Positions 25,978-47,902 of a stretch of 64,000 bases of DNA are shown here, one piece after another (position 1 is the first letter of the stretch; every line of letters starts with the position of its first letter). The stretch comes from an uncultured bacterium (GTDB taxonomy: Bacteria; Hydrogenedentota; Hydrogenedentia; Hydrogenedentales; CAILVY01): assembly GCA_937951485.1 (NCBI GenBank), contig CALEDJ010000005.1:1-64000 (forward strand), written 5' to 3'. The notes under the pieces are model-generated. The model worked only from the letters and a program-made list of their open reading frames with translations, was not told where the DNA came from and searched no databases. A program made the translations under genes and the position numbers.

Positions 25978-26700
25978 ATGAACTCATCATTGTATTTGAA
26001 GGGGTTTTTTTGCACCGTATCGGTCGTGACGCTTGTGGCAACCGGCGGCGGGGAATGGGCGGCGGCACAGGAGACGACTTCGGTATCGGGGGAAACACAG
26101 GGCCGGAACACCCCGCCATTGACGACATCCGAGGAAACCGGCCGGGCGCGGCGGATTTTCCGCACCCAGGACGCCGCGTGGCGCTTCGAGGTTACGGGAG
26201 GCGGCGGTCTGCCCGGCGGGTCGCGCAAGTCGGACCGCGACGGCGATATCATGTTCACCGGCACGGTGGACTATGAGATTCCGTTCATGGGCCACGGCGC
26301 ATTCGGCCCGCGCCTGATGCCGATTTTCATCTATGAGCAGCGTCGCGCCGATGTCGTGGTGGGCGGCGGCGGCGGTCTGGCGATTCGCGTGTACCACGTC
26401 AAGGACGAGCAGCGTGGGTTTTTCCTGGAAGGCGAGGCGTTGGCGCTGGGGCATTATCACCGGTTCCACGGGGACGGCTCACACCTTGATTTCATCACGG
26501 GCGGTGGCGTGGGCTACAAATGCCGCGCGGGCTGGCATGCGATTGTGAAGTTCAATCACATCTCCAACGCGGGGATCAGCCGCGACAATTCCGGCGTGAA
26601 TGTGCTCAGCGCGGGAATGGGCTGGTCGTTCCGCTGCGACGGGCGGCGGGACAGGTCAGGCGAGCGTCTTGCGGAAGCGCAGCGTGGCCAGGGCGAGTAG
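25978..26700 (+). CDS. Acyloxyacyl hydrolase, PagL-like outer-membrane lipid A deacylase
   Basis: The 240-residue product has a signal peptide (ending about AAAQ, residue 31) and a C-terminal half of amphipathic beta strands, as in small 8-strand barrels. FNHISNAGI carries the His-x-Ser pair (H194, S196) that is catalytic in PagL, the outer-membrane 3-O-deacylase of lipid A. In Pseudomonas PagL the third catalytic residue, Glu, lies 12 residues after the Ser; here that position is Asn208. Related acyloxyacyl hydrolases also vary at this site. The ATG at 25978 has a GGGAGGAAGAGG ribosome binding site. The 3' end overlaps the convergent ABC permease gene by 45 bp, and the last 20 residues are charged and probably outside the barrel. 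Confidence 0.65.
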   Translation: MNSSLYLKGFFCTVSVVTLVATGGGEWAAAQETTSVSGETQGRNTPPLTTSEETGRARRIFRTQDAAWRFEVTGGGGLPGGSRKSDRDGDIMFTGTVDYEIPFMGHGAFGPRLMPIFIYEQRRADVVVGGGGGLAIRVYHVKDEQRGFFLEGEALALGHYHRFHGDGSHLDFITGGGVGYKCRAGWHAIVKFNHISNAGISRDNSGVNVLSAGMGWSFRCDGRRDRSGERLAEAQRGQGE

Positions 26701-28714: not shown

Positions 28715-28720
28715 GCGCCG

Positions 28721-29845
28721 CTACGCTCCGCCGTTTTTGGGCAGATGCGCGGTGGCGCTCATGCCCGCGCGCAATCTCCCGCCCGCCGAATCGAGTTTGA
28801 TCTTCACGGCGAAGACCTGCTGGACGCGCTCCTCCTGGGTCTGCAGGTTGCGGGGCGTGTATTCGCCCTGGCTGGCGATGTGGATGATTTCGCCGGCGAA
28901 GGATTCCGCGCCGTGCGAATCGGTGGTGATCCGCACCTGCTGTCCCACGCGCACCTTGCCCAGCATCGCAGCGCTCACATATACGATCAGGCGGAGATCA
29001 TCGGGGTCCACCAGCCGCACCACGGGGCCGGGACGAACCAAGTCGCCCACGCGCACATGTACCGACTCCACCACGCTGTCCAGCGGCGCCTTCACTATCA
29101 TCTCCTGCAGCGCCGTCGCCGCGCGGTCGCGGTCCGCTGCGGCTGCGTCGCGCGCTGCCCGTGCCGCTGCCAGGTCTTCCGCGCGCGCCCCCGCTTTCAA
29201 CTCATCCACCATCGCCGCCGCCTGGTCATACAACGCCTTTGCGGCGGCGATTTCCTCCTCGCGCGCGCCGCGCGCCACCATGTCCCGCGTTTCGCGCGCG
29301 GACCGATACTGTCCCTCCGCCATGTCCAGCGCCGCCTTCGCCTGTTCCAATTGCCGCTGCGTCGCGATCTCTTCGCCATGCAGCCGCAGCACCCGGTCAT
29401 AATCCGCCCGCGCGGCCTCCCACTGGGCGCGCGCCGCATCCAGTGCCGCTTCGGCGGCGCGGATTTCCTCGCTGCGCGCGCCCTTCAGCGCCATGCGGTA
29501 TTGGGCTTCCGCCGCCGCGGCCGCCGCTTCCGCCTGGCGCAACTGCTCCGGCGTCGCCCCCGCCTCCAATTTCGCCAGGACCGCCTGCGCCTGCGCCAGC
29601 ACCGCTTCCGCCGCCGCCAGCACCGCCCGGGCCTCCGCGTCATCCAGACGCACGAGCACATCTCCCCGCCGCACCCGCTCCCCCTCCTCCACCAGCACCG
29701 CCGCCACGCGCCCGCCAATCCGTGACCCCGCCGTCACCGCCTCGCCTTCGATCTGACCCGTCACCCGCACCACGCCATTCGGCCCCCCATCGCATCCGGC
29801 AAGAACACAGATTGGCGGTAACATTATGAAAATAAAGCGTTTCAT
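28721..29845 (-). CDS. HlyD-family membrane-fusion lipoprotein (YbhG-like)
   Basis: The 374-residue product has a lipoprotein signal (MKRFIFIMLPPICVLAGC). Then come the barrel-sandwich half GRVAAVLVEEGERVRRGDVLVRLD, a long Ala/Glu-rich alpha-helical hairpin (about residues 70-245), the return lipoyl half IVKAPLDSVVESVHVRVGDLVRPG, and a beta-barrel domain. This is the periplasmic adaptor of tripartite efflux, joining the ABC pair to an outer-membrane channel. It overlaps the upstream tetR gene by 4 bp (ATGA). No channel gene is in this operon; a TolC-family gene exists at 55666, but a link is only possible, not shown. Confidence 0.92.
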   Translation of the reverse strand: MKRFIFIMLPPICVLAGCDGGPNGVVRVTGQIEGEAVTAGSRIGGRVAAVLVEEGERVRRGDVLVRLDDAEARAVLAAAEAVLAQAQAVLAKLEAGATPEQLRQAEAAAAAAEAQYRMALKGARSEEIRAAEAALDAARAQWEAARADYDRVLRLHGEEIATQRQLEQAKAALDMAEGQYRSARETRDMVARGAREEEIAAAKALYDQAAAMVDELKAGARAEDLAAARAARDAAAADRDRAATALQEMIVKAPLDSVVESVHVRVGDLVRPGPVVRLVDPDDLRLIVYVSAAMLGKVRVGQQVRITTDSHGAESFAGEIIHIASQGEYTPRNLQTQEERVQQVFAVKIKLDSAGGRLRAGMSATAHLPKNGGA

Positions 29846-30462
29846 CGGGTGTTGCGCACTCCTTCCAGAAAAATCGTCGTGATTGTTTCCGCAATGTCTT
29901 CCAACCGCATCGGCGTCACCGTCTTTGCCTCGAACACCTCCTGCGTCAACACGAAAATCGTGAACATCCCCATCAGTGTTCGCGCTGTGATCACCGGGTC
30001 AAGCCGCCGAATCACCCCCGCCGCCATCGCCGATTCCAGCGCCGCCGCCAACTTCATGCTGAACTGCGGCATCCACTCCTCGAGATAGGCCCGCCGCAAC
30101 GCGGGCATGTGGTTGATTTCCCCGATGAACAACGGGGCCGCCTTCGCGATGGACGGCGTCATCAACAATTCCAGAAACCGCGCCGCCATCGTCCGCGCAT
30201 AGTCCCCCAGATCCGCCTCCGCCTCTATCCGCAGACCCGGCAGCAACTCCGCCAGCGCTGTCACCTGCGCCCGAAGCGTCGCAATGAACAGCGCCTCCTT
30301 CCCTGCAAAGTACAAATAAATGGTCCCTTTCGTCACACCCGCCGCCCGCGCAATCCCCTCCATCGTCGCCCCGCGATACCCCCGCCGTGAAAATTCCTCC
30401 AGCGCCGCCGCCAGAATCTGCCCCGGCCGCGCCTCCGGCTGCCGCACCCACTTCGGACTCAT
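29842..30462 (-). CDS. TetR-family regulator (CecR-like position)
   Basis: The 206-residue product has an N-terminal TetR helix-turn-helix (ILAAALEEFSRRGYRGATME, then GIARAAGVTKGTIYLYFAGKEAL). The C-terminal domain is all-helical and binds an unknown ligand. It is the first gene of the efflux operon. A perfect 20-bp palindrome sits between its consensus promoter and start codon, so self-repression is strongly suggested. The order tetR-adaptor-ATPase-permease matches the cecR-ybhGFSR arrangement of enterobacteria, except that only one permease is present here. Confidence 0.93.
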   Translation of the reverse strand: MSPKWVRQPEARPGQILAAALEEFSRRGYRGATMEGIARAAGVTKGTIYLYFAGKEALFIATLRAQVTALAELLPGLRIEAEADLGDYARTMAARFLELLMTPSIAKAAPLFIGEINHMPALRRAYLEEWMPQFSMKLAAALESAMAAGVIRRLDPVITARTLMGMFTIFVLTQEVFEAKTVTPMRLEDIAETITTIFLEGVRNTR

Positions 30463-31241: not shown

Positions 31242-33251
31242 TTGGCCCGACAGGGTGAAGAGAAACGCGCGCGGACGGCGGCGCCGACGCCACAATCTTC
31301 GCCCCCCGACACCTCTGTCGCCCGCATTGAAGAAATGGAAAAGGCCGAGGGCATTGTCACTTGGCGGGCGATTGGGATTGCCTGTGCATTGATGCCGATT
31401 CTGGCGTTGTGGGTGGTGCAGGCGGAATTGATCTGGTATTCAGGGCATTCGACGGCGATTTCGCTTTTTTTTCACGTCACCTTCGTCGTTTTTCTGATTG
31501 CATTGGTGAACCTCGCGGTGGAGAACCGCTGGCCGGAGGCGGCGCTGACGCCCGGCGAATTGATGACCATCTACATGATGCTGGCGATTGCCGGCACTTT
31601 CTGCAGTCATGATCTGATCCAGGTCATGATTCCGATGCTTGGTTTTCCCAACTATTTCGCCAACCCCCAGAACAACTGGGAAGTGGTGGTGCTGCAATAT
31701 ATCCCGTCCTGGGCGATCCTGGGGGGTGATCAGGAGGCGTTGAACGGGCTGGCGGTGGGCAATGCGTCGCTGTATCGGTGGAATGTGCTGCTGGCGTGGG
31801 CGGCGCCGCTGGCGTTCTGGTTTGTGTTTCTGATGGCGCTGATGGGGGCGCTGCTGACCATCAACATTTTCTTCCGGCAGCACTGGACGGAACGGGAAAA
31901 ACTGAGTTTCCCCGTGATCCAGATTCCGATGATGCTGGCGACCGGCCTGCGGGAACTGCTGCGGAGTCGCCTGTTCTGGATTGCGTTCTGTCTGGTGGGG
32001 TTGATTGATATCAACAACGGGTTTCAGTACTTCTACCCCAATCTTCCGGAAATCCCGATTGTCCGCGCCTTCACCTTCCGGGAGTATTTCGTGGAGCGTC
32101 CCTGGAACGCGATTTCGACGACGGAGATCAACCTGTACCCGTTCGTGATCGGGCTGACCTATTTCATGCCGACCGATCTCGCCTTCAGTTGCTGGTTTTT
32201 CTACATCTTTTTCCGGTTGCAATTGGTGCTGGCGGCGTCGCTGGGGATCCACGATCTGCCGGGGTTTCCGTTCATTCACGAGCAGGCCGCGGGCGGCTAC
32301 ATGGCCTTGGGACTGCTGGCCATCTGGCTGTCACGGCGGCACTTCCTGGGGGTGGTGCGGCGGATTCTGGGCCTGCCGGACGGCGCGGATGACAGCCGGG
32401 AGCCGATGGGCTACCGGATGACGTTGGCGGTGTTCGTGTGTTGTTCCGCAGTGCTGGTTATTCAGGGGTGTCTGCTGGGGGCCGCGTGGCACCTGATGGT
32501 CATTTTCTTTTTGATCTTCTTTTTGTATTCGATAGCGATTGCGCGGATGCGCGCGGAACTGGGGCCGCCCGCGCACGATCTGCACGCGCTGGGGCCTGAT
32601 GTGCTGATCCACAACGCCGCCGGCACGCACAACCTCGGCCACCACAACATCGCGGCGTTCACCATGTTTTTCTGGTTCAACCGGGCCTACCGTTCCCATT
32701 TCTCCGCCCACAGCATGGAGGGTTTCAAATTGGCCCAAGTCAACAGAATTCTGGCGCGCTCGATCATGAAGGCCATGATGATCGCGGTGGTGGCGGGATC
32801 ATTGGCGGCGATCTGGGCGGTGCTGCATGCGTTGTATGTGCACGGGTACAGCGGGCGTATGGCAGGTGACGCCTTTGCTTCGGAAACCTGGAACAAGATG
32901 GCGGCGTGGATTACGTTTCCGCAGAAGCCGCGCTTCGCGGCGACAAGCGCCACGGGGATCGGGCTGGCATTCGCGCTGTTTTTGGGCGCATTGCGGATGC
33001 GCTTCACCTGGTGGCTCTGGCATCCCGTGGGCTATGCCACGGCCACGAGTTGGTCCATGGACAAGTTGTGGTTCTGCATTTTCGCGGGCTGGCTGTTGAA
33101 GGCGCTGATCACGCGCTACGGCGGCGCACGCCTCTACCGCGAGGCCATGCCGTTCTTCGTCGGGCTGGTGCTCGGTGAGTTCACCGTCGGGAGTTTGTGG
33201 ATGATCTACGGGTCAATCGCCAACACGCAGGTCTATCATTTTTGGGGGTGA
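31242..33251 (+). CDS. DUF6785/DUF6784-like multi-pass membrane protein
   Basis: The ~669-residue product is a polytopic membrane protein with about 13 hydrophobic segments from about residue 45. It resembles the uncharacterised DUF6785-DUF6784 family of PVC-type bacteria: an early ENRWPEAALTPGELMTIYMM motif, a conserved HDLPGFPFIHEQAAGGYMALG loop, RAELGPPAHDLHALGPD, and a late RFTWWLWHPVGYATATSWSMDKLWF segment. The family resembles OPT-type transporters in organisation. The start is not obvious. I chose the TTG at 31242, which has GGGGAGAT at 31229-31236, over in-frame sites upstream in repeat-rich sequence; an ATG at 31335 is another option. It is first in a same-strand block with a pseudo-peptidase/FtsX protein, an OPT-like transporter and an ABC pair. 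Substrate unknown. Confidence 0.6.
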   Translation: MARQGEEKRARTAAPTPQSSPPDTSVARIEEMEKAEGIVTWRAIGIACALMPILALWVVQAELIWYSGHSTAISLFFHVTFVVFLIALVNLAVENRWPEAALTPGELMTIYMMLAIAGTFCSHDLIQVMIPMLGFPNYFANPQNNWEVVVLQYIPSWAILGGDQEALNGLAVGNASLYRWNVLLAWAAPLAFWFVFLMALMGALLTINIFFRQHWTEREKLSFPVIQIPMMLATGLRELLRSRLFWIAFCLVGLIDINNGFQYFYPNLPEIPIVRAFTFREYFVERPWNAISTTEINLYPFVIGLTYFMPTDLAFSCWFFYIFFRLQLVLAASLGIHDLPGFPFIHEQAAGGYMALGLLAIWLSRRHFLGVVRRILGLPDGADDSREPMGYRMTLAVFVCCSAVLVIQGCLLGAAWHLMVIFFLIFFLYSIAIARMRAELGPPAHDLHALGPDVLIHNAAGTHNLGHHNIAAFTMFFWFNRAYRSHFSAHSMEGFKLAQVNRILARSIMKAMMIAVVAGSLAAIWAVLHALYVHGYSGRMAGDAFASETWNKMAAWITFPQKPRFAATSATGIGLAFALFLGALRMRFTWWLWHPVGYATATSWSMDKLWFCIFAGWLLKALITRYGGARLYREAMPFFVGLVLGEFTVGSLWMIYGSIANTQVYHFWG

Positions 33252-33299
33252 TGCGGATGAGCGCGGGGCGGTGGAATGGCAGCGGTTATTTGGTGAATA

Positions 33300-33396
33300 G
33301 GGTCGGACGGGTCGGACCAGTCGGATGGTTGTCTGCTGGAGACCTTCGGTCTGGATTGGGGCGCGGTCCGATCCGTCCGACGGGTCCGACTGCACA
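33300..33396. repeat. Dispersed repeats, families F and B
   Basis: GGTCGGACGGGTCGGACCAG (33300-33319) and GGTCCGATCCGTCCGACGGG (33366-33385) form an inverted pair around a family B GGAGACCTTCGGTC piece. They fill the gap before the 1552-residue gene. Family F sequence also appears inside gspI (50935-51000). Confidence 0.55.
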
Positions 33397-33429
33397 TAGG
33401 CGTGTTGATCACGCCCTGAAGGATTCGAC

Positions 33430-36400
33430 ATGCGCTGGGTTCTGGGTTCGATAGCGGCGATCGCGATCACCATCGCGGGGGCCGCGTGGGTGGGGCGGCC
33501 AAGCCCGCTCACCATCGAAATTCCGGATTTCGGCGTGGCCGATGACCTGAATATGGAGCGCATTGCGCGGCACATCGAAACGCTGAGCGCCGCGCCGTCG
33601 CGCATGAGCGGCTATCCCGGCGCGGAGGCGGCATTTGCATATATCCGTCAGGAACTCGAAGGGATTGGCCTGACGGATTTTCTCGTGCAGGAGTTTCCGG
33701 TGGCCGCGCCTGTGGTGGAGCGCGCTTACCTGGAAGCGGAGACGCCTGACGGCCGGGTGCGCATCCCCTTGCATCCGCTCTGGCCGAACCTGGTGCGCAC
33801 CAGCCACACCCCGCCGGAAGGCATCCGCGGCCCGCTGGTGGACGCAGGGCGCGGCACGGAACCTGAGATTCACGGCAAGACCATCCGGGACGCTATCGCG
33901 GTCATGAACTGGGACAGCGACGCGGAGTGGCTGAGCGTATTGGAGTTCGGCGGCAAGGCGGTGATCTTCCGTGAAGATGATCGGGGCACGGGCTACCAGG
34001 CGCGCAAGAAATTCCTGACGGTGCCCGCGAACCTGCCGCGTTTTTTCGTGGCCGTGCGCGACCTGCCGGCGCTCGACGCGCTGATCGCCGCGCCGGACGT
34101 CGAGGCGGTCATCCACTGCGTGATGGACTGGCAACAGGTCGCGGCGCGCAACCTGCTGGCGCGGCTGAGTCCCGGCGCGCCGCCGGGGCGCGTCCCGGCG
34201 CTTGACCGCATGCCGATTATTTTCCATGCCTACTACGACAGCATCAGCACGGTGCCGGATTTGGCGCCTGGCGCGGAGCAGGCCTGCGGACCGGCGGTGC
34301 TGTTGGAACTGGCGAGATATATCCGCGACCTGCCGGAAATCCCGCCCCGGCCCATCTACCTGCTTTTCACGGGCGGGCATGGTCAGGCCATGGCCGGCAT
34401 GACGCACTTCACGCGCACGCTGATGGACGGACTGGAACACGGCTGGCCGCCGGCGGAACGCGGTTCGCTGATCGCGCAGATGGGGCGTCCGGGATTGTTC
34501 ATCGGGCTGGACCTGTCCAGCCGGTCGGACCGGATGGGCATTTTCTGTGTCGGGCGGTTCCGATCGCAATTCGAGCACATCCTCCGCCCCAAATTCAGCA
34601 CGCTCGCGCTGAAACTGGACGATTTCGCCAAAAGTTTCATGACCAGATACGAAGAAGTGACCGTGCACACGGTCACGCCCTTTGTGGATTGCATCAACAT
34701 GACGCTGGGGCGCGGATGGTGGACGTATTTCCCGTACCAGGCGCCGTTCGCCAGCGAATTGCCGACGCTTGCGGGCATGCCCGGCGTGACGCTCAGCACC
34801 ATCAACGACGACCGGCGCTTTGTGGATACGCCCGGCGACACCACAGACCGTATGCGGCTTGATCTCTTTGCGCAACAACTGCTCCATGTGCCGGGGGAGC
34901 GGGTGGGACTCGCCAAGATCGCGCTGGGCCTGGCTTATTGGAAAGGCCCCTTTGTCAGTTCCCCGCTGGAGAACAAGGTCGCCCGGGTCCAGGGGCGGGT
35001 GGTCTGGCTGGACCAGCAGCGCGACTACACGCCGAATCGCCCGCTCCAAGGTGCGGCGGTCACCTACAAAACCTATCGCGCCGACAAGCATCTGATGGGT
35101 TTGCGCGGGGTGCCGGTTGTGCTCACGGACGCGGAAGGACGCTATGCCTTTGACGGATTGATGCAGTCCACCATCCATCTTCCGTCGAACGTGCTTTACC
35201 TCGAGGCCTATGGCCTCGCTTCGCAGCGCTTCATCGCCCAGAATCCGGAGGCCGAGCGGGAATACCTGGCGGTGCTGGCACGCGGCGGCGCGCCGAGCGC
35301 CGCAATCACCGTGGATGGGTCCACAATTTTCGGCATTGACCGCGCGCGGCCGGACGACTATCCCTCGACTGTTCTGCCGGTGCAGCGCGTGGAGCATTGC
35401 AACCTCGTCACCTTTCCCTGCAAGGCGGTAACGCTGTCGGGCCTGACCGAGCCGCGCGGGTTCATGAGCCTGACGGAGGTCACCATTCTCGATGTGTCCA
35501 CGGAAAGTCCACCGTTCCAGTGGGGGGCGAGTTACAGCGACAGTTGGCGCGGCGATCCCGAGGAAAACTGCATCAGCATCTGGGCGGACCCGACGCTGCG
35601 CGTGCGCCTGACGCTCGGTTTCGGCTTTCTGGAGAAACGGCTGATCCTCATCAACAACAGCGCCGAGGACCCTGTCGGCACGGGCTACGTGCTGGGCGAG
35701 TTGGAAACGATCCCCTCGTGGGTGCTGCACGGGGCGCGCGGCATGTGGTTCCTGAATGAGGACCGGATACGCAATTTCGAGCGCCACGGCATCAACAACC
35801 CGCGCGTGCGCACCATCCATGAGGAGGCGCAGCAGTATCTGGACCTGGCGGCGGCGGCCCTGGACGCCGAGGATTACCAGACCTACCGGGTTGCGGCGGA
35901 ACGGGGCTGGGCGTTGGAGAGCCGCGCCTACAGCGAATTGCTGAACACCGCCAACAACATGATCCGGGGCGTGCTGTTTTACCTGCTGCTGCTGATCCCT
36001 TTTGCGTATTGCCTGGAACGGCTGGTGCTGAACTCCGGCACCATTCGCGGGCGGATCATCGGCATGCTGTTGATTTTTGCGGGGAGTTTCGTTGTGCTGG
36101 CGCTGATGCACCCCGCGTTCCGCTTCACCCTCACGCCGGTGCTGGTCCTGATCGCGTTCATCATCCTTGCGCTCGCCGTTGCCGTGGTCGCGCTGGTGCT
36201 CGGCCATTTCGACACCATGCTTCGCGAGCGCAAGCAGGCCGTGGTGGGCGTGCACGAGGACACGGTGGCGCTGGGCAACGTGGCCATGCGCGCCGTGGAC
36301 CTCGGCATCGCCAACATCCGGCGGCGGCCGCAGCGCGGCTTCCTCACCGGCCTGACCATCGTGCTGGTGACGTTTACGCTGCTCTCCTTCACGTCCGTCG

Positions 36401-38088
36401 TGCCGGAGGTCGGCATCTCGCGCCTGCGCCATCCCGAAGGCGAGCCGGTCTATCGCGGCCTGCTCACCCGCGACCGGGCCTGGCAGCCGCTGCCCGTGCC
36501 GCTCTACACCTCCATGCAGCGCACCTTCGGCGACGAAGCGTCCGGGGCGGTGCGGCCCGGCGAGACGATACTGGCGGGGCGCGCCTGGTATTTCTCCGAC
36601 TACAGCGGCCACCTCTCGCGCATTGATCTGACGGCCGTGGGATCGGACGCGGCCGCACAGGAATCGGGCGGCGCGGCGACGGGCCGTTTCACCGTGGTGG
36701 CCCTGGTGGGCATGGAACCCAACGAGGCGCGCATCACGGCGGCGGCGGATACGTTGGTGGCGGGCCGCTGGTTCGAGGACCCGAACGAGGTTGGCCTGCT
36801 CCTGCCCCTGCACGCCGCAGATAACTTGGGAATCGGCCTGGAGGACATCGGGCGGCGCGTGATGATCTTCGGCCAGGAACTGCCGGTCATCGGCATTTAT
36901 GACCAGACGAAATTCGACGCGCTGCGGGATCTCGACGGCGAGCCGCTCAGCCCCGTCAACTTTGTGCAGCAAATGCTCATGGATGCCCAGAAGACCTCGG
37001 AAGAGGTCATAGACACGCTCAAGGAATACATCCACTGGTCATCGGATCAGATGGCGATTGTGCCGTATCACTGGGCGCGCGGCATCGGGGCCACGGTACG
37101 CAGCATTGCCGTGCGCGTCGGCGATGATGTCAGCCCCGGCGAGGAGGCGGAGGCGTGGGCGCGGCGATCCAACCTCACGATCCTGGCCAGCGACGGCGAC
37201 CTGGTCACATTGTATGCGTCGCTGGACCGGAGCCGCATCAGCGGGGCGGGCCAGATTCTGATCCCGATTCTCTTGGGCTTCATCATGGTGCTGGGCACCA
37301 TGCTGGGGTCGGTCTATGAACGCCGCCGCGAAATCTTCGTGTACAACTCCGTCGGGCTGTCGCCCACCAACGTGGCCACGCTGTTTCTGGCCGAGTCGGC
37401 GGTCTATGCCGTCATCGGCGCCTGCGCCGGGTACCTGCTCGGACAGAGCATCTCCAAGGCGCTGTTGACCGGCGGCATGCTCTCCGGGCTGACCCTGAAT
37501 TATTCAGCGGGGGTGACGGTTTTCGTTACGGTGCTGACCATGGGCATCGTCATCGCCTCGACCATCTATCCGGCGCGGCAGGCCTTTTATGCGGCCATCC
37601 CGGAACGGCGCAGGCATTTCGCCGATATCGAGGAGGACGGCGCGGGGGGGGCCGACGTCATCAGCATTTTCCTGCCCTTCGTGGCGACGCCGGGCCATGT
37701 CTTCGCGATGCAGGCGTATATGTGGGAGTTTCTGGACAATGTGCGCGGGGTGGCGGTGGGGAAACTGTCGGTGGATGATCTGCGGGCGGCGGTCGGCGAA
37801 GCGGACGGGCAGCCCGCGCCGGAATTGTATTTCCGGGCGTGGCTCGCGCCCTTCGACCTGGGCATCAGCCATGACGCCGTGCTCCGCGTGGCGTTTCGCG
37901 AGGACCGGGGCGTGTTTCAGTACCACCTGCGCATGACATGGCGCAGCGGCGATGTGCAGAACTGGCGGCGCCTTACCCCATGGTTCATTCTGGATATCCG
38001 CAAGCAACTCTTGATGTGGCGGATTCTGGCACCGGAAGAACACGAACGCTATGCCCAAAGGGCGGAAGGACTTTTTTTCCCGGCGTGA
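33430..38088 (+). CDS. Giant protein: degenerate M28 peptidase-like domain fused to an FtsX-type permease
   Basis: The 1552-residue product starts with a signal anchor (about 5-22). Residues about 40-500 follow the M28 metallopeptidase fold order, but the key sites differ. The usual AHYDS is AYYDS (Tyr268 for the zinc His), GADDNASG is GAEQACGP (Gln284 for the bridging Asp), and FTGEEQG is FTGGHGQ (Gly316-His317 for the catalytic Glu pair). It should therefore be an inactive, ligand-binding domain. Residues about 500-840 are beta-rich. Two or three TM helices lie at about 845-935. A further TM (FLTGLTIVLVTFTLLSF, about 980) opens an FtsX/MacB-type permease half with an extracytoplasmic domain and three TM helices from about 1275 (ILLGFIMVLGTMLGSVYERR; ESAVYAVIGACAGYLLG). 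The ABC permease and ATPase at 40609-42043 probably complete the transporter. Confidence 0.75.
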   Translation: MRWVLGSIAAIAITIAGAAWVGRPSPLTIEIPDFGVADDLNMERIARHIETLSAAPSRMSGYPGAEAAFAYIRQELEGIGLTDFLVQEFPVAAPVVERAYLEAETPDGRVRIPLHPLWPNLVRTSHTPPEGIRGPLVDAGRGTEPEIHGKTIRDAIAVMNWDSDAEWLSVLEFGGKAVIFREDDRGTGYQARKKFLTVPANLPRFFVAVRDLPALDALIAAPDVEAVIHCVMDWQQVAARNLLARLSPGAPPGRVPALDRMPIIFHAYYDSISTVPDLAPGAEQACGPAVLLELARYIRDLPEIPPRPIYLLFTGGHGQAMAGMTHFTRTLMDGLEHGWPPAERGSLIAQMGRPGLFIGLDLSSRSDRMGIFCVGRFRSQFEHILRPKFSTLALKLDDFAKSFMTRYEEVTVHTVTPFVDCINMTLGRGWWTYFPYQAPFASELPTLAGMPGVTLSTINDDRRFVDTPGDTTDRMRLDLFAQQLLHVPGERVGLAKIALGLAYWKGPFVSSPLENKVARVQGRVVWLDQQRDYTPNRPLQGAAVTYKTYRADKHLMGLRGVPVVLTDAEGRYAFDGLMQSTIHLPSNVLYLEAYGLASQRFIAQNPEAEREYLAVLARGGAPSAAITVDGSTIFGIDRARPDDYPSTVLPVQRVEHCNLVTFPCKAVTLSGLTEPRGFMSLTEVTILDVSTESPPFQWGASYSDSWRGDPEENCISIWADPTLRVRLTLGFGFLEKRLILINNSAEDPVGTGYVLGELETIPSWVLHGARGMWFLNEDRIRNFERHGINNPRVRTIHEEAQQYLDLAAAALDAEDYQTYRVAAERGWALESRAYSELLNTANNMIRGVLFYLLLLIPFAYCLERLVLNSGTIRGRIIGMLLIFAGSFVVLALMHPAFRFTLTPVLVLIAFIILALAVAVVALVLGHFDTMLRERKQAVVGVHEDTVALGNVAMRAVDLGIANIRRRPQRGFLTGLTIVLVTFTLLSFTSVVPEVGISRLRHPEGEPVYRGLLTRDRAWQPLPVPLYTSMQRTFGDEASGAVRPGETILAGRAWYFSDYSGHLSRIDLTAVGSDAAAQESGGAATGRFTVVALVGMEPNEARITAAADTLVAGRWFEDPNEVGLLLPLHAADNLGIGLEDIGRRVMIFGQELPVIGIYDQTKFDALRDLDGEPLSPVNFVQQMLMDAQKTSEEVIDTLKEYIHWSSDQMAIVPYHWARGIGATVRSIAVRVGDDVSPGEEAEAWARRSNLTILASDGDLVTLYASLDRSRISGAGQILIPILLGFIMVLGTMLGSVYERRREIFVYNSVGLSPTNVATLFLAESAVYAVIGACAGYLLGQSISKALLTGGMLSGLTLNYSAGVTVFVTVLTMGIVIASTIYPARQAFYAAIPERRRHFADIEEDGAGGADVISIFLPFVATPGHVFAMQAYMWEFLDNVRGVAVGKLSVDDLRAAVGEADGQPAPELYFRAWLAPFDLGISHDAVLRVAFREDRGVFQYHLRMTWRSGDVQNWRRLTPWFILDIRKQLLMWRILAPEEHERYAQRAEGLFFPA

Positions 38089-38146
38089 CCACGTTTCCGG
38101 CCGCGCCACTGAAACAACAGAATATCTTCATTAAAAGGAATGGCGA

Positions 38147-40258
38147 TTGAGCGAGGAACGGGAAAAAGACACCGGCGCGGAGCAGCGGCAGTTCGCTTCG
38201 GAGTATCCCATCGCGGCGGCGGACAGAACGCTCGAGCGCGGCCCGTATGTGGACGGATTCTCCTCGCGGACCATGCTGGGCGCGCTTTTTGTCGCGGTGA
38301 TCATGATGCCGGGCGCGGTGTATATGGGGCTGGTGGCGGGACAGTCGCTGGGGCAGGCCGCCGAATGGGTGACGATCATTCTCTTTGCCGAACTGGCGCG
38401 CCGCAGTTTCACCCAACTCAAACGCCAGGAGATTTTTGTGCTGTTCTACGTGGCGTCGTCCATCGCAGCGGTGCAGTTGTTGCACCTGGCGCTGTCCGGC
38501 GGCCCGTTGGCGGGGGTCATTTGGAACCAATACCTGCTGCAATCGCCGCAAACCTCGGGCATCGCCGACCAGATTCCGGACTGGGTGGTGCCGCCCGCGT
38601 ACAGCCCGGCCATCCTGGAGCGCAATCTCGCGCATGCGGCGTGGTGGTATTCCGCGAGCAAGGGGTTCTTATCGCCGATCACGTTGGTCCTCATGGCCTA
38701 TGTTCTGGGACGGATGGGCTGGTTCGGGCTGGGTTATCTGCTTTTTCGGGCCACCTCCGATGCGGAGCGGCTGCCATTTCCGTTGGCGCCGGTGGCGGCG
38801 CAAGGCGCGACCGCGCTTGCCGAAGCCACGGACCGCGAGGAGGGCGGTCGTCCCGGCAAGCGGTCGTGGCGCTGGACCGTGTTCAGTGTCGGCGCGACCT
38901 TCGGCATTGTGTTCGGCGCCCTGTATGTGCTTATCCCGGTAACGACGGGTCTGTTCATGAGCAAGCCCATCATGATTTTCCCTATTCCGTTCATTGATTT
39001 CACGCGGAGCGTGGAAAACTACCTGCCGGCGAGCCTCGTCTCCATCAGTTTCGACGCGATGCTCCTGCTGGCGGGCATGATACTGCCGTTTCGGCTGGTG
39101 CTCGGCGTGGTCACGGCCATCCTGTGCACGAGCGTCTTCGGCAATCCCGTGCTGCAGAAACTGGGGTTCTTTCCGCATTGGACGCCCGGCAACGGCCTGC
39201 TGGTCAACCAGATGATCCTCGCCTACGACTTCTGGATGAGCGTGGCCATCGGCCTGGCGCTCGCCGTGGCGCTGGTCGGCCTGCGCTTCGTCATCGTCAA
39301 CGCCTGGAAACAACTGCGCATGACGCGCGCCGAGCGCGAAGCGGCGCGGCGCGCCGAGGACGCGGCGCACACGACGGACGCCGGCGAGCCGCCGTATCGC
39401 CGCGCCTCCAGGGAACGGGGCGACCTGCCGGTGTGGGTGGCGGTCGCGCTCTACGCGGCCTGCGCCGCGGGATTCACCGGCATCTCGCATGTGCTGGTGC
39501 CGGATTTCCCGGTGTGGATATTCATCATTTTCGCGTTCATCTGGTCGCCGCTCAATTCCTACATTTCGGCGCGGCTTATCGGCCTGACCGGGCAGGGGCT
39601 TGCCGTGCCGTTTCTCCGCGAAACGGTCTTCATTACCAGCGGCCACAAGGGGGTGGACATCTGGTTCGCTCCGATTCCGCTGTTTGATTTCGGCGGCGCG
39701 GCGCAGAAATTCCGGGAACTGGAACTCACCCGCACCAGGTTCACCTCGCTGATCAAGGCGGAACTGGTCATGTTTCCCATTGTGTTTGTCGCCAGTTTCC
39801 TGTTCTGGTGGTTTTTCTGGCGGTTGAACCAGATTCCATCGGACCGGTTTCCGTTTGCGGCGCGGATATGGCCGGTCGCAGCGCGCCAGGCCTATCTCAT
39901 CTTCACCGCGAACAGTTCCGAGCAGTCGCTGCTGGTGGAGGCGCTGAAGCCGCCGCTGATTGCCGGAGCGACAGGCGTGGGGCTGGGGCTCTACGCCGTG
40001 CTGGGCGTTTTCAACATGCCGGTGACCTTCTTCTACGGAATCATCGGCGGCGTGGGGCAGCCCTTCCATGTCGCTTTGCCGATGCTGGTGGGCGCGCTGG
40101 CCAGCCGCTACTATTTCAGCCGGAAATTCAGCCCGGAGAACTGGTACCGCTATGTGCCGGTCCTGGCGGCGGGATTCTCCTGCGGGATGGGCTTGTCGGG
40201 GATGACGGCGGTGGCGTTGGCGCTGATTGCGCAATGTACGCGGGCGTTGCCGTTTTAG
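38147..40258 (+). CDS. OPT-like multi-pass membrane transporter
   Basis: The 703-residue product has about 13-14 hydrophobic segments and features like the oligopeptide transporter (OPT) superfamily: an early RTMLGALFVAVIMMPGAVYMGLVAGQSLG, repeated long helices, and a C-terminal IIGGVGQPFHVALPMLVGALASRYYF region. Between are soluble loops, including an acidic/basic segment at about 400-420. OPT proteins import peptides or metal-siderophore complexes by proton coupling. The assignment is tentative; it could instead be a divergent relative of the DUF6785 protein upstream. The start is a TTG at 38147 with AAAAGGAATGG before it. It lies 58 bp after the giant FtsX gene. Confidence 0.6.
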   Translation: MSEEREKDTGAEQRQFASEYPIAAADRTLERGPYVDGFSSRTMLGALFVAVIMMPGAVYMGLVAGQSLGQAAEWVTIILFAELARRSFTQLKRQEIFVLFYVASSIAAVQLLHLALSGGPLAGVIWNQYLLQSPQTSGIADQIPDWVVPPAYSPAILERNLAHAAWWYSASKGFLSPITLVLMAYVLGRMGWFGLGYLLFRATSDAERLPFPLAPVAAQGATALAEATDREEGGRPGKRSWRWTVFSVGATFGIVFGALYVLIPVTTGLFMSKPIMIFPIPFIDFTRSVENYLPASLVSISFDAMLLLAGMILPFRLVLGVVTAILCTSVFGNPVLQKLGFFPHWTPGNGLLVNQMILAYDFWMSVAIGLALAVALVGLRFVIVNAWKQLRMTRAEREAARRAEDAAHTTDAGEPPYRRASRERGDLPVWVAVALYAACAAGFTGISHVLVPDFPVWIFIIFAFIWSPLNSYISARLIGLTGQGLAVPFLRETVFITSGHKGVDIWFAPIPLFDFGGAAQKFRELELTRTRFTSLIKAELVMFPIVFVASFLFWWFFWRLNQIPSDRFPFAARIWPVAARQAYLIFTANSSEQSLLVEALKPPLIAGATGVGLGLYAVLGVFNMPVTFFYGIIGGVGQPFHVALPMLVGALASRYYFSRKFSPENWYRYVPVLAAGFSCGMGLSGMTAVALALIAQCTRALPF

Positions 40259-40263
40259 GGGGA

Positions 40264-40475
40264 AAGGACACAAAGGACGAAAGAGACACAAAGGACGAAC
40301 AGGACAAAAAGAAATGCTGAATGGGCGAGAAAGCGCTGGGAATTGGCAGGAACCTATTATTACTGGTGGGCCGCCTGCGCGAGAGTTCTGGTGTACAGGC
40401 TTTGGTCATTGTGTGGGCGGCGCACCCGCGCAGGAGTTCTGGTGTACAGGCTTTGGCCTGTGTGCGGGCGGCGCA
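40264..40475. repeat. Direct repeats before the mini-permease gene
   Basis: GACACAAAGGACGAA occurs twice with a 19-bp period near 40267-40301. A 51-bp unit starting GAGTTCTGGTGTACAGGCTT repeats at 40383 and 40434 (family B core, with GGGCGGCGCACCCGCG after each). The remainder of 40259-40608 holds no recognised gene. CGGAAAGGCG at 40593-40602 is the ribosome binding site for the next gene. Confidence 0.65.
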
Positions 40476-40608
40476 CCCGCGCTCCCGAGGATGCCGGCGT
40501 CGTTCTGCTCTGTGCGCCGCCAGCGCCCGCTCGCTTTTCCAGGGTCCTTGCTGTCCTTGCCGTTTTTGCCGTCCCTTTCAGTCACCCCCCCCCGGAAAGG
40601 CGCTTCTC

Positions 40609-41298
40609 ATGTCATCTGAACACCGTCTTTTCTCCGAAGACCCCTCCCAACGGAAGTTATCGCTGCCATGGGGACGCACTGTGGAGATGTGCTGGCGCAA
40701 CCTGAAGAACCGGCGCGGCCGTTTTCTGCTGGTGTTCCTGAGCATTGCGGTGGTAGTGGCGTTTTTCGTGTCCACGTTGAGTTACCACCGGCTGCTGGAG
40801 GAACTGCGCGGCCGCGACGATGTGCACACGCGGGCGGTCCTGGAGCGTGGCGGGGTGCTTTCCCACAACCCGGAAGCCGACCGCAAGCACCGGGACCAGA
40901 TGGTCTGGCTGCTGGTCTTGTCGGGCATGCTGTGTTTCGTCGGGGTGATGAATACGATGTACATGAGCGTTACGGAGCGCTATCGCGAGATTGGCACGCT
41001 GAAATGCCTGGGTGCGCTGGACAGTTTTGTGGTGCGGCTGTTTCTGCTGGAGAGCGTTTTCATCGGCGCGGTGGGCAGCGCGCTGGGCGCGCTGGGCGGG
41101 TTCCTGCTGACGCTGTTTCAGATAGGCGTGACTTTGGAATTCGGCCTGATTGGCGTGGGGCATGTGATGCGGACGCTGGCGCAAACCGCGCCGCCGGCCT
41201 TTGCGGGCGGCACGGCGCTGACGGTGCTGGCGGCGATTTATCCGACCATCGCGGCGGCCCGGATGAAGCCGGTGGACGCGATGCGGGTGGAGGTCTGA
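40609..41298 (+). CDS. Miniature FtsX/MacB-type ABC permease
   Basis: The 229-residue product has four TM helices. The N-terminal amphipathic MCWRNLKNRRGRFLLVFLSI, the coupling segment MYMSVTERYREIGTLKCLGA, and the final TALTVLAAIYPTIAAARMKPVDAMR are all classic FtsX/MacB/LolCE features. The usual 200-residue extracytoplasmic domain between TM1 and TM2 is cut to about 50 residues. The large FtsX-type protein at 33430 may supply the other, domain-rich half of the transporter (inference). The ATG at 40609 has GGAAAGG before it; the frame upstream runs through repeats. It is 4 bp from the ATPase gene. Confidence 0.85.
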   Translation: MSSEHRLFSEDPSQRKLSLPWGRTVEMCWRNLKNRRGRFLLVFLSIAVVVAFFVSTLSYHRLLEELRGRDDVHTRAVLERGGVLSHNPEADRKHRDQMVWLLVLSGMLCFVGVMNTMYMSVTERYREIGTLKCLGALDSFVVRLFLLESVFIGAVGSALGALGGFLLTLFQIGVTLEFGLIGVGHVMRTLAQTAPPAFAGGTALTVLAAIYPTIAAARMKPVDAMRVEV

Positions 41299-41302
41299 CG
41301 CG

Positions 41303-42043
41303 ATGTCGAAACGGGAAATTGTGCGCACACAGGGCGTGTGGAAGACCTATTACATGGGCAGCGAGGAGGTGCACGCGCTGCGCGGCATCAGTATCAGCGT
41401 CGAGGCCGGCGAATACATCAGCATCATGGGGCCGTCCGGGTCGGGCAAGAGCACCTTTTTCAATATGGTGGGGGGCTTGGACAAGCCGACTTCGGGCGAG
41501 GTGTACATTGATGAGGTGGACATCTCGCAACTGGGCATCTATGAACTGGCCTGGTTGCGGTGCCGCAAAATCGGGTACATCTTCCAGACTTTTAACCTGA
41601 TCCCGGTGATGAACGCCCTGGAAAACGTGTCGTTGCCGATGGTTTTCGCCGGGCTTGGCGCGGACGAGTCGCGGGACAAGGCGGCGGCGTTGCTGGCGCG
41701 GGTTGGTCTCGGCGACCGGCTTACCCACCGTCCCATCGAGATGTCCGGCGGCCAGCAGCAGCGCGTGGCCATCGCGCGGGCGCTCGCCAATGATCCCGCG
41801 ATCATCCTCGCTGACGAGCCGACCGGCAACCTGGACCTGAAGACGGGCCGCGAGATCATAGATCTGCTCACCGAGATGAAGGAAGAGCGCAATGTCACGA
41901 TCATTACGGCCACACACGACCATAAGATGCTTGCGGCCAGCGACCGGGTGATCTGGTTCACGGATGGGCAGGTGACGCGCATCCAGAACCGGGAGGACCT
42001 GGATATTCGCGTCGGCACCATCGGCGGGGCGGAAGAGGCATAG
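41303..42043 (+). CDS. MacB/LolD-type ABC transporter ATP-binding protein
   Basis: The 246-residue product has Walker A GPSGSGKST, Q-loop FQTFNLIP, signature MSGGQQQRVAIARAL, Walker B IILADEPTGNLD and switch His in ITATHD. This is the MacB/LolD/FtsE subclass, which drives mechanotransmission across the envelope or lipoprotein release rather than simple channel transport. It is encoded directly after the mini-permease and is the last gene of the 31-42 kb membrane block. Confidence 0.95.
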   Translation: MSKREIVRTQGVWKTYYMGSEEVHALRGISISVEAGEYISIMGPSGSGKSTFFNMVGGLDKPTSGEVYIDEVDISQLGIYELAWLRCRKIGYIFQTFNLIPVMNALENVSLPMVFAGLGADESRDKAAALLARVGLGDRLTHRPIEMSGGQQQRVAIARALANDPAIILADEPTGNLDLKTGREIIDLLTEMKEERNVTIITATHDHKMLAASDRVIWFTDGQVTRIQNREDLDIRVGTIGGAEEA

Positions 42044-42418: not shown

Positions 42419-43339
42419 ATGGTTCGCAGTCTGGCAATAAGGCAGTTTTTCGTTATAGTGGATTTTGCGCTCACCGTGCTGATCGTTTTGACGGCGGGAA
42501 TGGTCGTAATGCAGGTGTTGGAGCCGCCGCCGCTGATCAGCGACCTGATCGAGAACGCCGAGAACCCCGCCGCCCGCAATGTGCAACTCGCGGCCCGCAC
42601 CGGAGACCGAAGCCAATATGATCGTATCCTTGCGAGCGCGCTTTTCGGCGACGCCGGGCGCTGGGACCCGGGCGCCGAACCGCCGCCGCCCCCCCCTCCG
42701 CCGCCGCCCAGTACCGACTTGGAGGACACACAGTTGAATCTCCGTCTGCTGGGGACGGTTGCGCTCAGCCCCGAAGACCCGTTTGCCTCGGCCGTCATTG
42801 AAAATGCCGATTTGCGCACGAAGGGCGGGTATGGGCTGGGGCAGGAGGTGGTGGAGAAGGTGAAATTGCTGGAAGTCTATCCCCGCGAGGTTATTCTTCT
42901 GAATGAGCGCAACACGCCGCCGACACGCGAGCGGCTGCGCATGGATGAAGACGACATGTCATCGCCGCCGCCGCAAGTGGCGCAGTCCGCCATGCCTGTC
43001 CGCAGCGGTTCGATCGAGCAAATCACGCTGGACCGCATGGACATGGTCAACGAGATTATGCGGAGTTATTCGGACCTTGTCACCAAGGTCAAGCCGGAGC
43101 CTTACCGCGACGCCAACGGCCGCATCATCGGTTTGACCGCCGGCAATATCAGCCAGATTCCCCTGGCGGGAAAACTGGGCCTCACGGATAACGACGTTTT
43201 GCAGACGGTCAACAATGAGCCGATAGACAGCATGGAAAAAATCTACGAGATTTTCAATAGATATGGGAACGCCAATTCAATCCGGATTGGCATTCTGCGC
43301 GACGGCAAGCCCAAAATTATCACGTATAACCTGCGTTAG
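42419..43339 (+). CDS. gspC: Type II secretion protein GspC
   Basis: GspC links the inner-membrane platform to the outer-membrane secretin. The 306-residue product has a short cytoplasmic start, a TM helix at about 12-31, a Pro stretch of ten residues (88-97), the homology-region (HR) domain at about 103-155 (LNLRLLGTVALSPEDPFASAVI), and a C-terminal PDZ-like domain at about 225-300 (GKLGLTDNDVLQTVNNEPIDSMEKI). It opens the gsp run and is followed by gspD. The polyproline linker is an unusually rigid spacer for this position. Confidence 0.9.
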   Translation: MVRSLAIRQFFVIVDFALTVLIVLTAGMVVMQVLEPPPLISDLIENAENPAARNVQLAARTGDRSQYDRILASALFGDAGRWDPGAEPPPPPPPPPPSTDLEDTQLNLRLLGTVALSPEDPFASAVIENADLRTKGGYGLGQEVVEKVKLLEVYPREVILLNERNTPPTRERLRMDEDDMSSPPPQVAQSAMPVRSGSIEQITLDRMDMVNEIMRSYSDLVTKVKPEPYRDANGRIIGLTAGNISQIPLAGKLGLTDNDVLQTVNNEPIDSMEKIYEIFNRYGNANSIRIGILRDGKPKIITYNLR

Positions 43340-43368
43340 TGTGCAGTGCGCGTATCAGCCCGAAAGGG

Positions 43369-43402
43369 TTCCGGAGTACAGGCTTTAGCCTGTTGGATAC
43401 GG
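43369..43402. repeat. Dispersed repeat, family B core
   Basis: TTCCGGAGTACAGGCTTTAG followed by CCTGTTGG in the gspC-gspD gap. The palindromic core is CAGGCTTTAGCCTG. Confidence 0.65.
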
Positions 43403-43454
43403 GCGAACGTCTGCGCGACAGTTGCGGCGGCTGACAATCGGGAAGGTAAGAAAC

Positions 43455-46130
43455 GTGCCCAAAAAAAACCGTGTAAAGATGATGGTGATCATAGCGCTGT
43501 TTGCGATCACGGCAGGCCAGGCGCAGGTGCAGGAGGATGATGATCCCGAATTTTTCGGCGATCCGGGACTTTACATGGAGCCGGACCCGGATATTGCGCC
43601 GCCGCCACCGCCGGCGCCCCAGCAAGCGCCACCGCCGCCGCAAGCCCCCCAGCCGCCGTTCGCTCCCCCTCCACAGCAAGAAATGATGCCGCAGGAAATG
43701 CCGCATCAGCAGGAATATGTGGAAGAATATTACGAGGAACCGCCGATGCCGCCGCAGCCGGCGGTGCGCCCGGCCACGCGCCCGCCCACGCGCGTGACCC
43801 CCGCAGCGAGGCCGCCTGTAAGGCCGCCCGCGCCAAGGGGCAGCACCGCCTCCCCGACGGTTCCCTCGACGGAACCCGTGATTCCGAACGAAATGAAGAC
43901 CGGCGAAACCCCCAAGGAGTTGATATCTTTTGACTTCAAGGATGTGCCGCTGGATGTGGTGATTGAGCGCATCTCCAAACTGACCGGCCGCAACTTCGAC
44001 GTGGACCCCAATATCGGCGCCACCACGGTCACTATCATCACGCATGACCGCATCCCGCCGGAAATGGCCTATGAAGTGCTGGAGTCCATCCTCGCCACGC
44101 GGGGCTTTTCCATGGTCGAAACCCTTGATGGCCACCTCATCAAGATCATCAACACTCCCGATGCGACCCTCTCCGAAAAAGTGCCGTTGGTCAAAGGCCC
44201 CGCGCCGTTGCCGGAAAGTTTTGACGGCTATTCCACGCATATCGTGCCGGTCAAATACGCGGATGCCGCCGAACTCTCCAATGTGCTCAAGATATTGGGG
44301 TCGAAGACGGCGCGCATTGACGTCTATGCCCCCACCAACACGCTGATCATCACGGACACCGCGGACGGGCTGCGGCGCATGTTTGCGTTTCTGGAAGACA
44401 CGGACATCCCCGGCTTCGACACGGTCATGGAAATCTTCACGCTGGAATATACGCGCGCCGAGGCGCTGGCGCGACAGATCGAGCAGGTGCTGCTCGATAC
44501 GGGGGGGCGCGCCCCCACGATCACGATGCGGCAGGCACAGCAGCCGGTGGTCCAGGCGCCCACGCGCCCGCCGGTGCGTCCGCCGCTGCGGCCCGTGCCC
44601 GGGGCCACGGCCTCTCAGGTCATCGGCACGCGCGAGGAAGTGTTGCGCATGGTGCCGGAAGAGCGTCTCAATGCGCTTATCGTCATGGCCTCGGAAGGCA
44701 TGATGGAGCGGGTGCGCGACCTGGTGAAGCGACTCGATATCCCGACGCCGTATGAAGCGAACAATCTGCACATCTATGAATTGCTCAATGCGGACGCGGA
44801 ACAGGTGGAAGCGGCGTTGCAGCCGCTCATCGGCACGGCGCCCCGGCGCACCGCGGCCGCTGGTGCCGGCGGCGCGGCCCCGGCGCAGGCGACGGAAGTG
44901 CAGCCGTTCGAACAGAAGGTGCATGTTTCCCGCTATGACCAGACCAACGCCCTGTTGATCGTGGCATCGCCTCAGGACTACAAACTGCTGGAATCCTTCA
45001 TCGCGCGGCTTGATGTGCCGCCGCGCCAGGTGTTGGTCGAGGCGGTGATCATGCAGGTCAGCATGACCAACGACTTCGTGCTGGCCGTGGATGCGGCGGC
45101 GGTGAAGGGCCGGGACGGCTTCGGCATGACCAGCACCTCCACCATCACCGGCCTGGTCCCTTCGCCCGCCACTGTCAGCGGTGCCACGGGCAAATCCGGC
45201 CTGGATGATCTGGCGACGGTTGCGAAGGCGGCCAGTACGCTGGTGGCCGGACCTGGGCTGAGCCAGATCATGGGCCTGGGCGCGGGCGGTGGCGTGACGG
45301 CGGGTGTTTTCGACGATATTGAGTGGGACTTGGGCGGCGGCACCAAAGTGAAACTCCCCTTTGTGCCGCTGCTGTTCCAGGCGATCGAGGCCATCAGCGA
45401 CGCCGAGGTGCTTTCCCAGCCCAGCCTCGTGACAGTGGACAACGAAGAGGCCTCGATTGTCGTGGGCAACGAGGTGCCGTTCATCACCAGCCAGCAGCGC
45501 GGCCTCACCGGCGGGGCTCAGCAGGCGGCGGTGAACCCCTACTACGGCTACACCCGCGTGCAGCGGCAGGACGTCGGCATCAAACTCACCGTGACCCCGC
45601 AAATCAGCGAGGGCGACAATGTCCTGCTGCAACTGGAAATCGAAGATTCCTCGATCGTCAACATTCCCGTGGCGCAGGGCGGCGTGGACCCCAACATCGC
45701 CGGTCCCACGACGGCCAAATCGCAGATCAAGAACAAAATCCTCGTGAAGGATGGCTCGACGGCGGTCATCGGCGGTCTGATCAAGGACGAGAAGAACCGT
45801 ACACGTACGCAGCCGCCGGTGCTCGGCGACATTCCCGTGATCGGATGGATCTTCGGGAGGCGTGACAATAAAATGACCAAGAAGAATCTGGTGGTGCTCG
45901 TGACGCCGCACATTGTAAAGGAAGGCGTGGACCTCGATCGGGTGACCCAGTACAAAGTCGGCGAATACCACGACACAAACATAGACCAGTTGTTCGAACG
46001 CGGCTTCTTCAGGAAAGTCAAGAAAAAGCGCGAACTCCGCAAGCAACACCATCCCACCTTCGACCGATCGGAGGAACTGCTGGGACAGCGCGAGACCGTG
46101 CTTTACGGCCGCGGCGACATCAAGAGGTAA
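43455..46130 (+). CDS. gspD: Type II secretion outer-membrane secretin GspD
   Basis: GspD forms the outer-membrane gate. The 891-residue product has a signal peptide (MMVIIALFAITAGQAQ) and then an unusual Pro/Gln/Glu/Arg-rich stretch of about 100 residues. N0 follows (ISFDFKDVPLDVVIERISKLTGRNF), then N1-N3 ring domains with two low-complexity insertions, one again Pro/Arg-rich (APTRPPVRPPLRPV). The secretin core has VLSQPSLVTVDNEEASIVVG and the C-terminal signature PPVLGDIPVIGWIFG, then NLVVLVTPHIV. I chose the GTG at 43455 because GGAAGGTAAG lies 5 bp upstream and it gives the best signal peptide. No lipobox is present. Confidence 0.95.
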   Translation: MPKKNRVKMMVIIALFAITAGQAQVQEDDDPEFFGDPGLYMEPDPDIAPPPPPAPQQAPPPPQAPQPPFAPPPQQEMMPQEMPHQQEYVEEYYEEPPMPPQPAVRPATRPPTRVTPAARPPVRPPAPRGSTASPTVPSTEPVIPNEMKTGETPKELISFDFKDVPLDVVIERISKLTGRNFDVDPNIGATTVTIITHDRIPPEMAYEVLESILATRGFSMVETLDGHLIKIINTPDATLSEKVPLVKGPAPLPESFDGYSTHIVPVKYADAAELSNVLKILGSKTARIDVYAPTNTLIITDTADGLRRMFAFLEDTDIPGFDTVMEIFTLEYTRAEALARQIEQVLLDTGGRAPTITMRQAQQPVVQAPTRPPVRPPLRPVPGATASQVIGTREEVLRMVPEERLNALIVMASEGMMERVRDLVKRLDIPTPYEANNLHIYELLNADAEQVEAALQPLIGTAPRRTAAAGAGGAAPAQATEVQPFEQKVHVSRYDQTNALLIVASPQDYKLLESFIARLDVPPRQVLVEAVIMQVSMTNDFVLAVDAAAVKGRDGFGMTSTSTITGLVPSPATVSGATGKSGLDDLATVAKAASTLVAGPGLSQIMGLGAGGGVTAGVFDDIEWDLGGGTKVKLPFVPLLFQAIEAISDAEVLSQPSLVTVDNEEASIVVGNEVPFITSQQRGLTGGAQQAAVNPYYGYTRVQRQDVGIKLTVTPQISEGDNVLLQLEIEDSSIVNIPVAQGGVDPNIAGPTTAKSQIKNKILVKDGSTAVIGGLIKDEKNRTRTQPPVLGDIPVIGWIFGRRDNKMTKKNLVVLVTPHIVKEGVDLDRVTQYKVGEYHDTNIDQLFERGFFRKVKKKRELRKQHHPTFDRSEELLGQRETVLYGRGDIKR

Positions 46131-46133
46131 GCC

Positions 46134-47876: not shown

Positions 47877-47902
47877 CGCCGCGCGGGCGGCGGGAAACAC
47901 AT

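Follow-up and report, generated by a model that had tools for sequence, protein, structure and literature searches.

The five co-directional plus-strand genes P1 to P5 of a 64,000-nucleotide stretch from the genome of an uncultured bacterium of the Hydrogenedentota (in the following, the window) on balance probably encode one ATP-driven, heteromeric machine of the cell envelope, consisting of a type VII ATP-binding cassette (ABC) core and of fixed as well as exchangeable subunits with an OPT fold. The source genome (G000) comprises 4.55 Mb in 77 contigs, and the window belongs to its contig C5. The original prediction, which was made from the sequence alone, had listed five plus-strand genes ranging from a DUF6785-like protein to a MacB/LolD ATPase. 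All of them could be confirmed, and the start sites of P1 and P4 were corrected (Table 1). For P1, the ATG at 31335 is preferred, with the listed start of the open reading frame (ORF) at 31122 and the earlier one at 31242 both located upstream. The start of P4 was set to the ATG at 40609 by homologue alignment, the ORF from 40321 being over-extended.

The conservation of the block is far beyond chance, because the gene order is kept in other phyla and because, in 63 of the 66 other P2 loci, P3 immediately follows P2 in the same orientation, with a median gap of 85 bases. P4 is found on the same strand at a distance of at most 9 kb from P2 in 57 of these 66 loci. The scan of named genomes resulted in 11 P2 relatives, which according to their record labels belong to the Hydrogenedentota, Victivallales/Lentisphaerae, Kiritimatiellota, Omnitrophota, Sumerlaeota and Hinthialibacteria. 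The full order P1-P2-P3-P4-P5 is present in L032, L034, L037 and L039 (other Hydrogenedentota and Kiritimatiellota). The Victivallales locus L035 shows it as well, interrupted by an insertion of 3.5 kb that separates P3 from P4. The remaining named loci stop inside the block, except for L042, in which no P4-P5 is located beside P3, and P4 was present in all eight of the searched genomes with named P2 loci. A search of other genomes for the gene order had been proposed in the original prediction, and the order recurs in related as well as in distant genomes. P2 of the window shares 53-58% identity with the P2 of other phyla and 31-33% with the type B paralogue from the order of the window; this pattern therefore points to an old paralogy or a transfer behind the type A block.

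The proposal that the families co-occur above chance is supported by two genome sets. Of the 60 genomes in the order to which the window belongs, the same 12 contain both P2 and P3, with P4 in these 12 and in two incomplete metagenome-assembled genomes (G018 and G046), and DUF6785 in the 12 and in G046; the association of P4 with P2 reached 6.5e-11 in the Fisher test, which here and below ignores relatedness. In the phylum comprising Victivallales and Kiritimatiellota (288 genomes), 50 genomes have P2, 49 P3 and 48 P4, and neither P3 nor P4 occurs outside the genomes with P2 (Fisher 7e-55 and 9e-53, respectively). P4 is thus found in 48 of the 50 genomes with P2 and in none of the 238 without it. 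P1 was detected in 40 genomes of this phylum, of which 39 also have P2, and its copy numbers there are lower bounds, with the four best candidates scored per genome. In all 348 genomes taken together, P3 never occurs without P2, and P1 does so only in G115 and in G046, which has P4. In G115, a strong DUF6785 protein is encoded at L105:9264-11255, and P2, P3 and P4 gave no match above threshold.

P2 had been described as a giant FtsX protein with an oversized extracytoplasmic domain and a pseudo-peptidase, and both descriptions hold. The protein consists of a transmembrane (TM) segment at residues 4-22, an ectodomain extending up to residue 843, three TM segments, the FtsX unit and a C-terminal domain. 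The family profile matched the aminopeptidase 2ek8 over profile positions 40-337 (hmmsearch, 1.6e-19), which establishes M28 homology with a PA insert, and Pfam gave a weak match. In the M28 ligand columns of 27 aligned sequences, the histidine of the HxD motif is present in three, the Asp of NDD in none and the Glu-Glu pair in none. P2 was rejected as an active M28 peptidase because the zinc ligands are gone, and the pseudo-M28 domain, for which a role as sensor of a peptide-like ligand had been proposed earlier, probably binds or presents a ligand. Nicastrin and nicalin, both of which are among the P2 profile matches, likewise have an M28 scaffold without a zinc site, whereas the scaffold in P2 is fused to a bacterial ABC permease.

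The core of P2 matched MacB (5gko) in a Foldseek search with an E-value of 1.1e-11 and also matches LolC/E. It aligned with HrtB (7w7c) over 150 residues (VIA-align Z 18.5, root-mean-square deviation 2.1), and the extracytoplasmic part between TM1 and TM2 of this core matched the periplasmic domain of MacB (3ftj, Z 12.5). In the AlphaFold2 (AF2) model of residues 838-1552, which has a predicted template modelling score (pTM) of 0.47, the domains are reliable and their arrangement is not. The C-terminal domain is helix-grip/KA1-like in outline, with middling structural matches (Z 8.3-9.3). It is kept in all aligned relatives and absent from MacB and LolC.

P4 has four TM segments with only ~38 residues between the first two in the TM profile and thus hardly any extracytoplasmic domain, in agreement with the mini-permease that had been predicted. 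P2 and P4 both exceed the Pfam FtsX cut-off, the assignment of P4 being made by sequence only, and both carry the coupling-helix motif. An asymmetric heterodimer would need a coupling helix in both permeases, and both keep the motif. P5 has intact Walker A, signature, Walker B and H-loop motifs and is 79-86% identical to the P5 of other complete blocks. The asymmetric ABC transporter postulated earlier gains support from the co-occurrence of P2 and P4 (12 of 12 and 48 of 50 genomes with P2) as well as from the two coupling-helix motifs; the complex itself is what we infer. The gap between P3 and P4 contains a 51-base repeat in two head-to-tail copies (40383-40482), which occurs nowhere else in the window.

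The FtsX permeases with their coupling-helix motif, the MacB-like periplasmic domain of P2 and the LolD/MacB-type ATPase are features shared with the type VII ABC systems MacB, LolCDE, FtsEX, HrtBA and YbbAP. Unlike these, the block has constant OPT-fold company and a pseudo-M28 domain, and P2 contains ~800 extra extracytoplasmic residues, three extra TM segments and the C-terminal domain, with P4 leaving little outside. A LolCDE equivalog was rejected on the basis of the NCBIfam cut-offs, since P5 scored 231.8 bits versus 307.75 for LolD (TIGR02211), and P4 (40.1) and P2 (12.4) both missed the LolCE cut-off of 362.45 (TIGR02212). An ECF transporter was rejected as well: the permeases are of the FtsX type, P1 has an OPT fold and P5 is far under the ECF ATPase cut-offs.

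In Pfam, P1 of the window matched DUF6785 and DUF6784 only and not the OPT family (PF03169). Its AF2 model (pTM 0.81) matched a single structure, that of barley Yellow stripe 1 (YS1, 7wsr), with a Foldseek E-value of 1.6e-7, and aligned with it over 537 residues (VIA-align Z 23.8), the next unrelated chain having Z 6.0. Judged from this model, DUF6785 has an OPT/YSL fold, an assignment that is new here. P3 of the window is without a Pfam match. Of 31 homologues in the alignment, however, 10 match OPT (PF03169; best 6.2e-12), in line with the "OPT-like" label it had been given. The kinship of P1 and P3 is put forward because of the fold of P1 and the Pfam OPT matches of the P3 homologues. A close sequence relationship of the two was rejected, as the profile comparison was weak (probability 11%), and searches of solved structures by sequence with P1 and P3 as queries yielded nothing useful.

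P3 is single-copy beside P2, unlike P1, and is the fixed, invariant partner of P2. P1 and P3 had been predicted as two secondary transporters. The transporter fold can be retained, as both appear to have an OPT fold, P1 by its model and P3 by its homologues, but they look like dedicated partners of the core more than independent carriers because P3 was never seen without P2 in the genomes searched. In contrast to OPT/YSL carriers, P1 lies outside the OPT models by sequence, and both proteins are tied to an ABC core. To our knowledge, no OPT carrier or OPT-fold protein has been found paired with an ABC core elsewhere.

In seven genomes of the Hydrogenedentota (family f5), the block is reduced to P1'-P2'-P3' without P4-P5, and an unlinked P4' adjoins an ATPase that is 62-70% identical to P5. 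By sequence comparison, this is the orthologous P4-P5 pair moved elsewhere. A separate ATPase partner of the giant permease, which would have spoken against the predicted complex, was not found in these seven genomes. An isolated P4-P5 pair without P2 alongside is present in G063 (L085:9867-11360). In L053-L058 and L126, a conserved multi-pass protein of ~440 amino acids without Pfam match is encoded 3' of the unlinked ATPase; in type B relatives, we take this protein by eye to be GT-C glycosyltransferase-like.

Twenty loci of the 288-genome phylum (L069-L088) usually contain an extra second ATPase and a PqqD-like protein, often also a protein of ~300 amino acids, and their P4 is either the mini form or a form with an extracytoplasmic domain. 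PqqD-like genes were found in 25 examined loci (Pfam PqqD 2.6e-7), and no PqqD-like frame is present in the window or in the other type A loci examined. Given these larger relatives, the block of the window is therefore a compact form. The single ATPase of the original prediction applies to this block, but most relatives of the other phylum have two ATPase genes and a PqqD-like protein.

In several genomes, DUF6785 is present in multiple copies (six in G024, four in G014 and three each in G009 and G036), with one P3 in each. The neighbours of orphan P1 copies often include GH2, GH31, GH42, GH95, GH123, sulfatases and Gfo/Idh/MocA oxidoreductases. As a control, 15 stretches drawn at random from these genomes were used; the comparison covered 25 listed families and was non-quantitative. 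The glycan genes near orphan P1 copies are suggestive as a lead for the substrate, nothing more.

In the machine we favour, P2 and P4 would form the two transmembrane halves of a MacB/LolCDE-like core. P2 would supply the whole periplasmic apparatus, i.e., the MacB-like domain and the catalytically dead M28-like domain, while P4 would give a second four-helix bundle and coupling helix and almost nothing outside. A P5 dimer would power this core by dimerising on ATP, with two different ATPases in that position in many relatives, and the coupling helices may transmit the motion to the part in the periplasm, as expected from type VII systems (MacB, PMC5985334; YbbAP, PMC12646458). P3 would be the fixed single-copy OPT-fold subunit and P1 the exchangeable one, whose orphan copies may share one core. 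Less firmly than the core step, P1 is suggested to set substrate specificity, as the S-components do in group II ECF transporters, and the ATP-driven movements of P2 and P4 to drive or gate the OPT-fold subunits. In group II ECF transporters, a shared ATP-driven module serves exchangeable S-components (PMC7755397). This is used as a working analogy for one core with which different membrane subunits may associate in turn; the block differs from it by the lack of EcfT, the FtsX-type permeases and an exchangeable subunit that is not a small S-component but a protein of 640 amino acids with an OPT fold.

The most likely use of such a machine would be the uptake of glycan-derived compounds. More tentatively, and as a possibility that we consider doubtful at present, the system would be a novel type of transporter, with ATP hydrolysis by the MacB-type core coupled to OPT-fold carriers, a fixed P3 and an exchangeable set of DUF6785 proteins, and with many substrates per core. 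In bacteria resembling the Verrucomicrobiota, it would perhaps be the missing pathway by which glycan fragments pass the inner membrane. Members of the Verrucomicrobiota break down complex polysaccharides, SusCD is absent from those studied (PMC11980603), and the passage of glycan fragments across the inner membrane is therefore worth asking about.

Several points weigh against this interpretation. The second ATPase, the PqqD-like protein and the ~300-residue protein of many relatives are missing from the block of the window, and the genome of the window itself holds one DUF6785 copy. The co-occurrence counts are uncorrected for kinship, and the genomes represent a limited number of lineages. 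The genomes are rich in glycan-type genes anyway, so that the glycan link is suggestive at best. Type VII systems of known function perform envelope or export tasks, which speaks against import. Finally, we infer the assembly of the proteins into a complex and its stoichiometry, the common use of one core, the substrate and the direction of transport.

Among the alternatives, an extractor resembling LolCDE or YbbAP is the least improbable, but unlikely overall. The substrate, lipid-linked or a lipoprotein, would be pulled out of the inner membrane by P2, P4 and P5 and flipped or shielded by the OPT-fold proteins. In favour of this, the best score of P5 is that against LolD, both LolC/E and MacB are matched by the core of P2, and the ~440-residue protein with a GT-C-like appearance by eye is located 3' of P5 in type B relatives, although it has no Pfam match. 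Every LolCDE equivalog cut-off was missed, however, and we know of no OPT-fold partner of LolCDE. A recent precedent for extraction out of the membrane by a type VII system is YbbAP-TesA (PMC12646458).

A transporter exporting or importing peptides, possibly similar to ribosomally synthesized and post-translationally modified peptides, is more improbable still. The PqqD-like protein would escort, the M28-like domain bind and the OPT-fold proteins carry the peptide, consistent with the PqqD-like genes of the 25 loci, the M28 ancestry of the P2 domain and the peptides or metal chelates classically carried by OPT members. Against this stand the lack of a PqqD-like frame in the window and in the other examined type A loci and the fact that PqqD folds serve outside peptide maturation, too; neither precursor peptides nor enzymes for their maturation were recognised, albeit without a systematic search for them. 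Two independent systems in one operon, with P1 and P3 as OPT secondary carriers and P2, P4 and P5 as an ABC transporter of the MacB type for export or stress, are marginally the least probable. In their favour, members of the OPT family usually work on their own as secondary carriers, and the P1 orphans are isolated on the chromosome. On the other side, P3 occurs without P2 in none of 348 genomes, P1 does so in only two, one of them with P4, and P3 directly follows P2 in nearly all loci.

Each of the folds is known, and the combination is new as far as the literature was searched: no account of DUF6785, DUF6784 or this gene combination could be found in a search that left subscription journals and preprints outside. 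DUF6785 gains a fold and constant partners, and the question is raised whether a carrier-type fold can be driven or gated by a mechanotransmission ABC unit. Should the orphan DUF6785 copies have one core in common, this would be ECF-like modular uptake on an unrelated scaffold.

Table 1. Genes of the block and domains of P2, with positions in the window (pLDDT, predicted local distance difference test).
Feature	Position	Strand	Evidence
P1, DUF6785/DUF6784 protein, 638 aa	31335..33251	+	Pfam PF20581 4e-138, PF20580 5e-33
P2, giant FtsX permease, 1552 aa	33430..38088	+	Pfam M28 weak, FtsX 6.5e-10
M28 aminopeptidase-like domain with PA insert and lost zinc ligands (P2 residues 40-345)	33547..34464	+	hmmsearch 2ek8 1.6e-19
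Three TM segments ahead of the FtsX core (P2 residues 844-922)	35959..36195	+	Hydropathy; helices in AF2 model
Type VII FtsX core: TM1, MacB-like periplasmic domain, TM2-TM4, coupling helix (P2 residues 950-1392)	36277..37605	+	Pfam FtsX 6.5e-10; structure matches
Extra C-terminal alpha/beta domain (P2 residues 1407-1537)	37648..38040	+	Alignment, pLDDT mostly 78-92
P3, OPT-superfamily membrane protein, 703 aa	38147..40258	+	Pfam OPT matches of homologues
P4, mini-FtsX permease, 229 aa	40609..41298	+	Pfam FtsX 8.6e-15; homologue alignments; TM profile
P5, LolD/MacB-type ABC ATPase, 246 aa	41303..42043	+	TIGR02211 231.8 bits; motifs

The flanking genes were rejected as members of the system, the type A loci having no common gene outside the five. 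An Rfam search for RNA elements gave no match, and the promoter and terminator scans resulted in signals not above chance. Immediately 3' of P5, type II secretion genes are located on the plus strand (42419-49174), comprising GspC and GspD (Pfam) followed by GspE/GspF-like genes, which among the type A loci are peculiar to the window. Upstream of the block, the minus strand carries an apparent operon of an ABC-2 permease, an ATPase, an HlyD-type adaptor and a TetR regulator (26656-30462; assigned by ORF reading). Furthermore, a GDSL lipase domain and a 3-keto-disaccharide hydrolase domain are fused in one protein at 24164-25501 (minus strand), and a coding-like, Cys/Lys/Gly-rich tandem array with a unit of 108 bases (2.1 copies, 98%) is located at 23789-24013.

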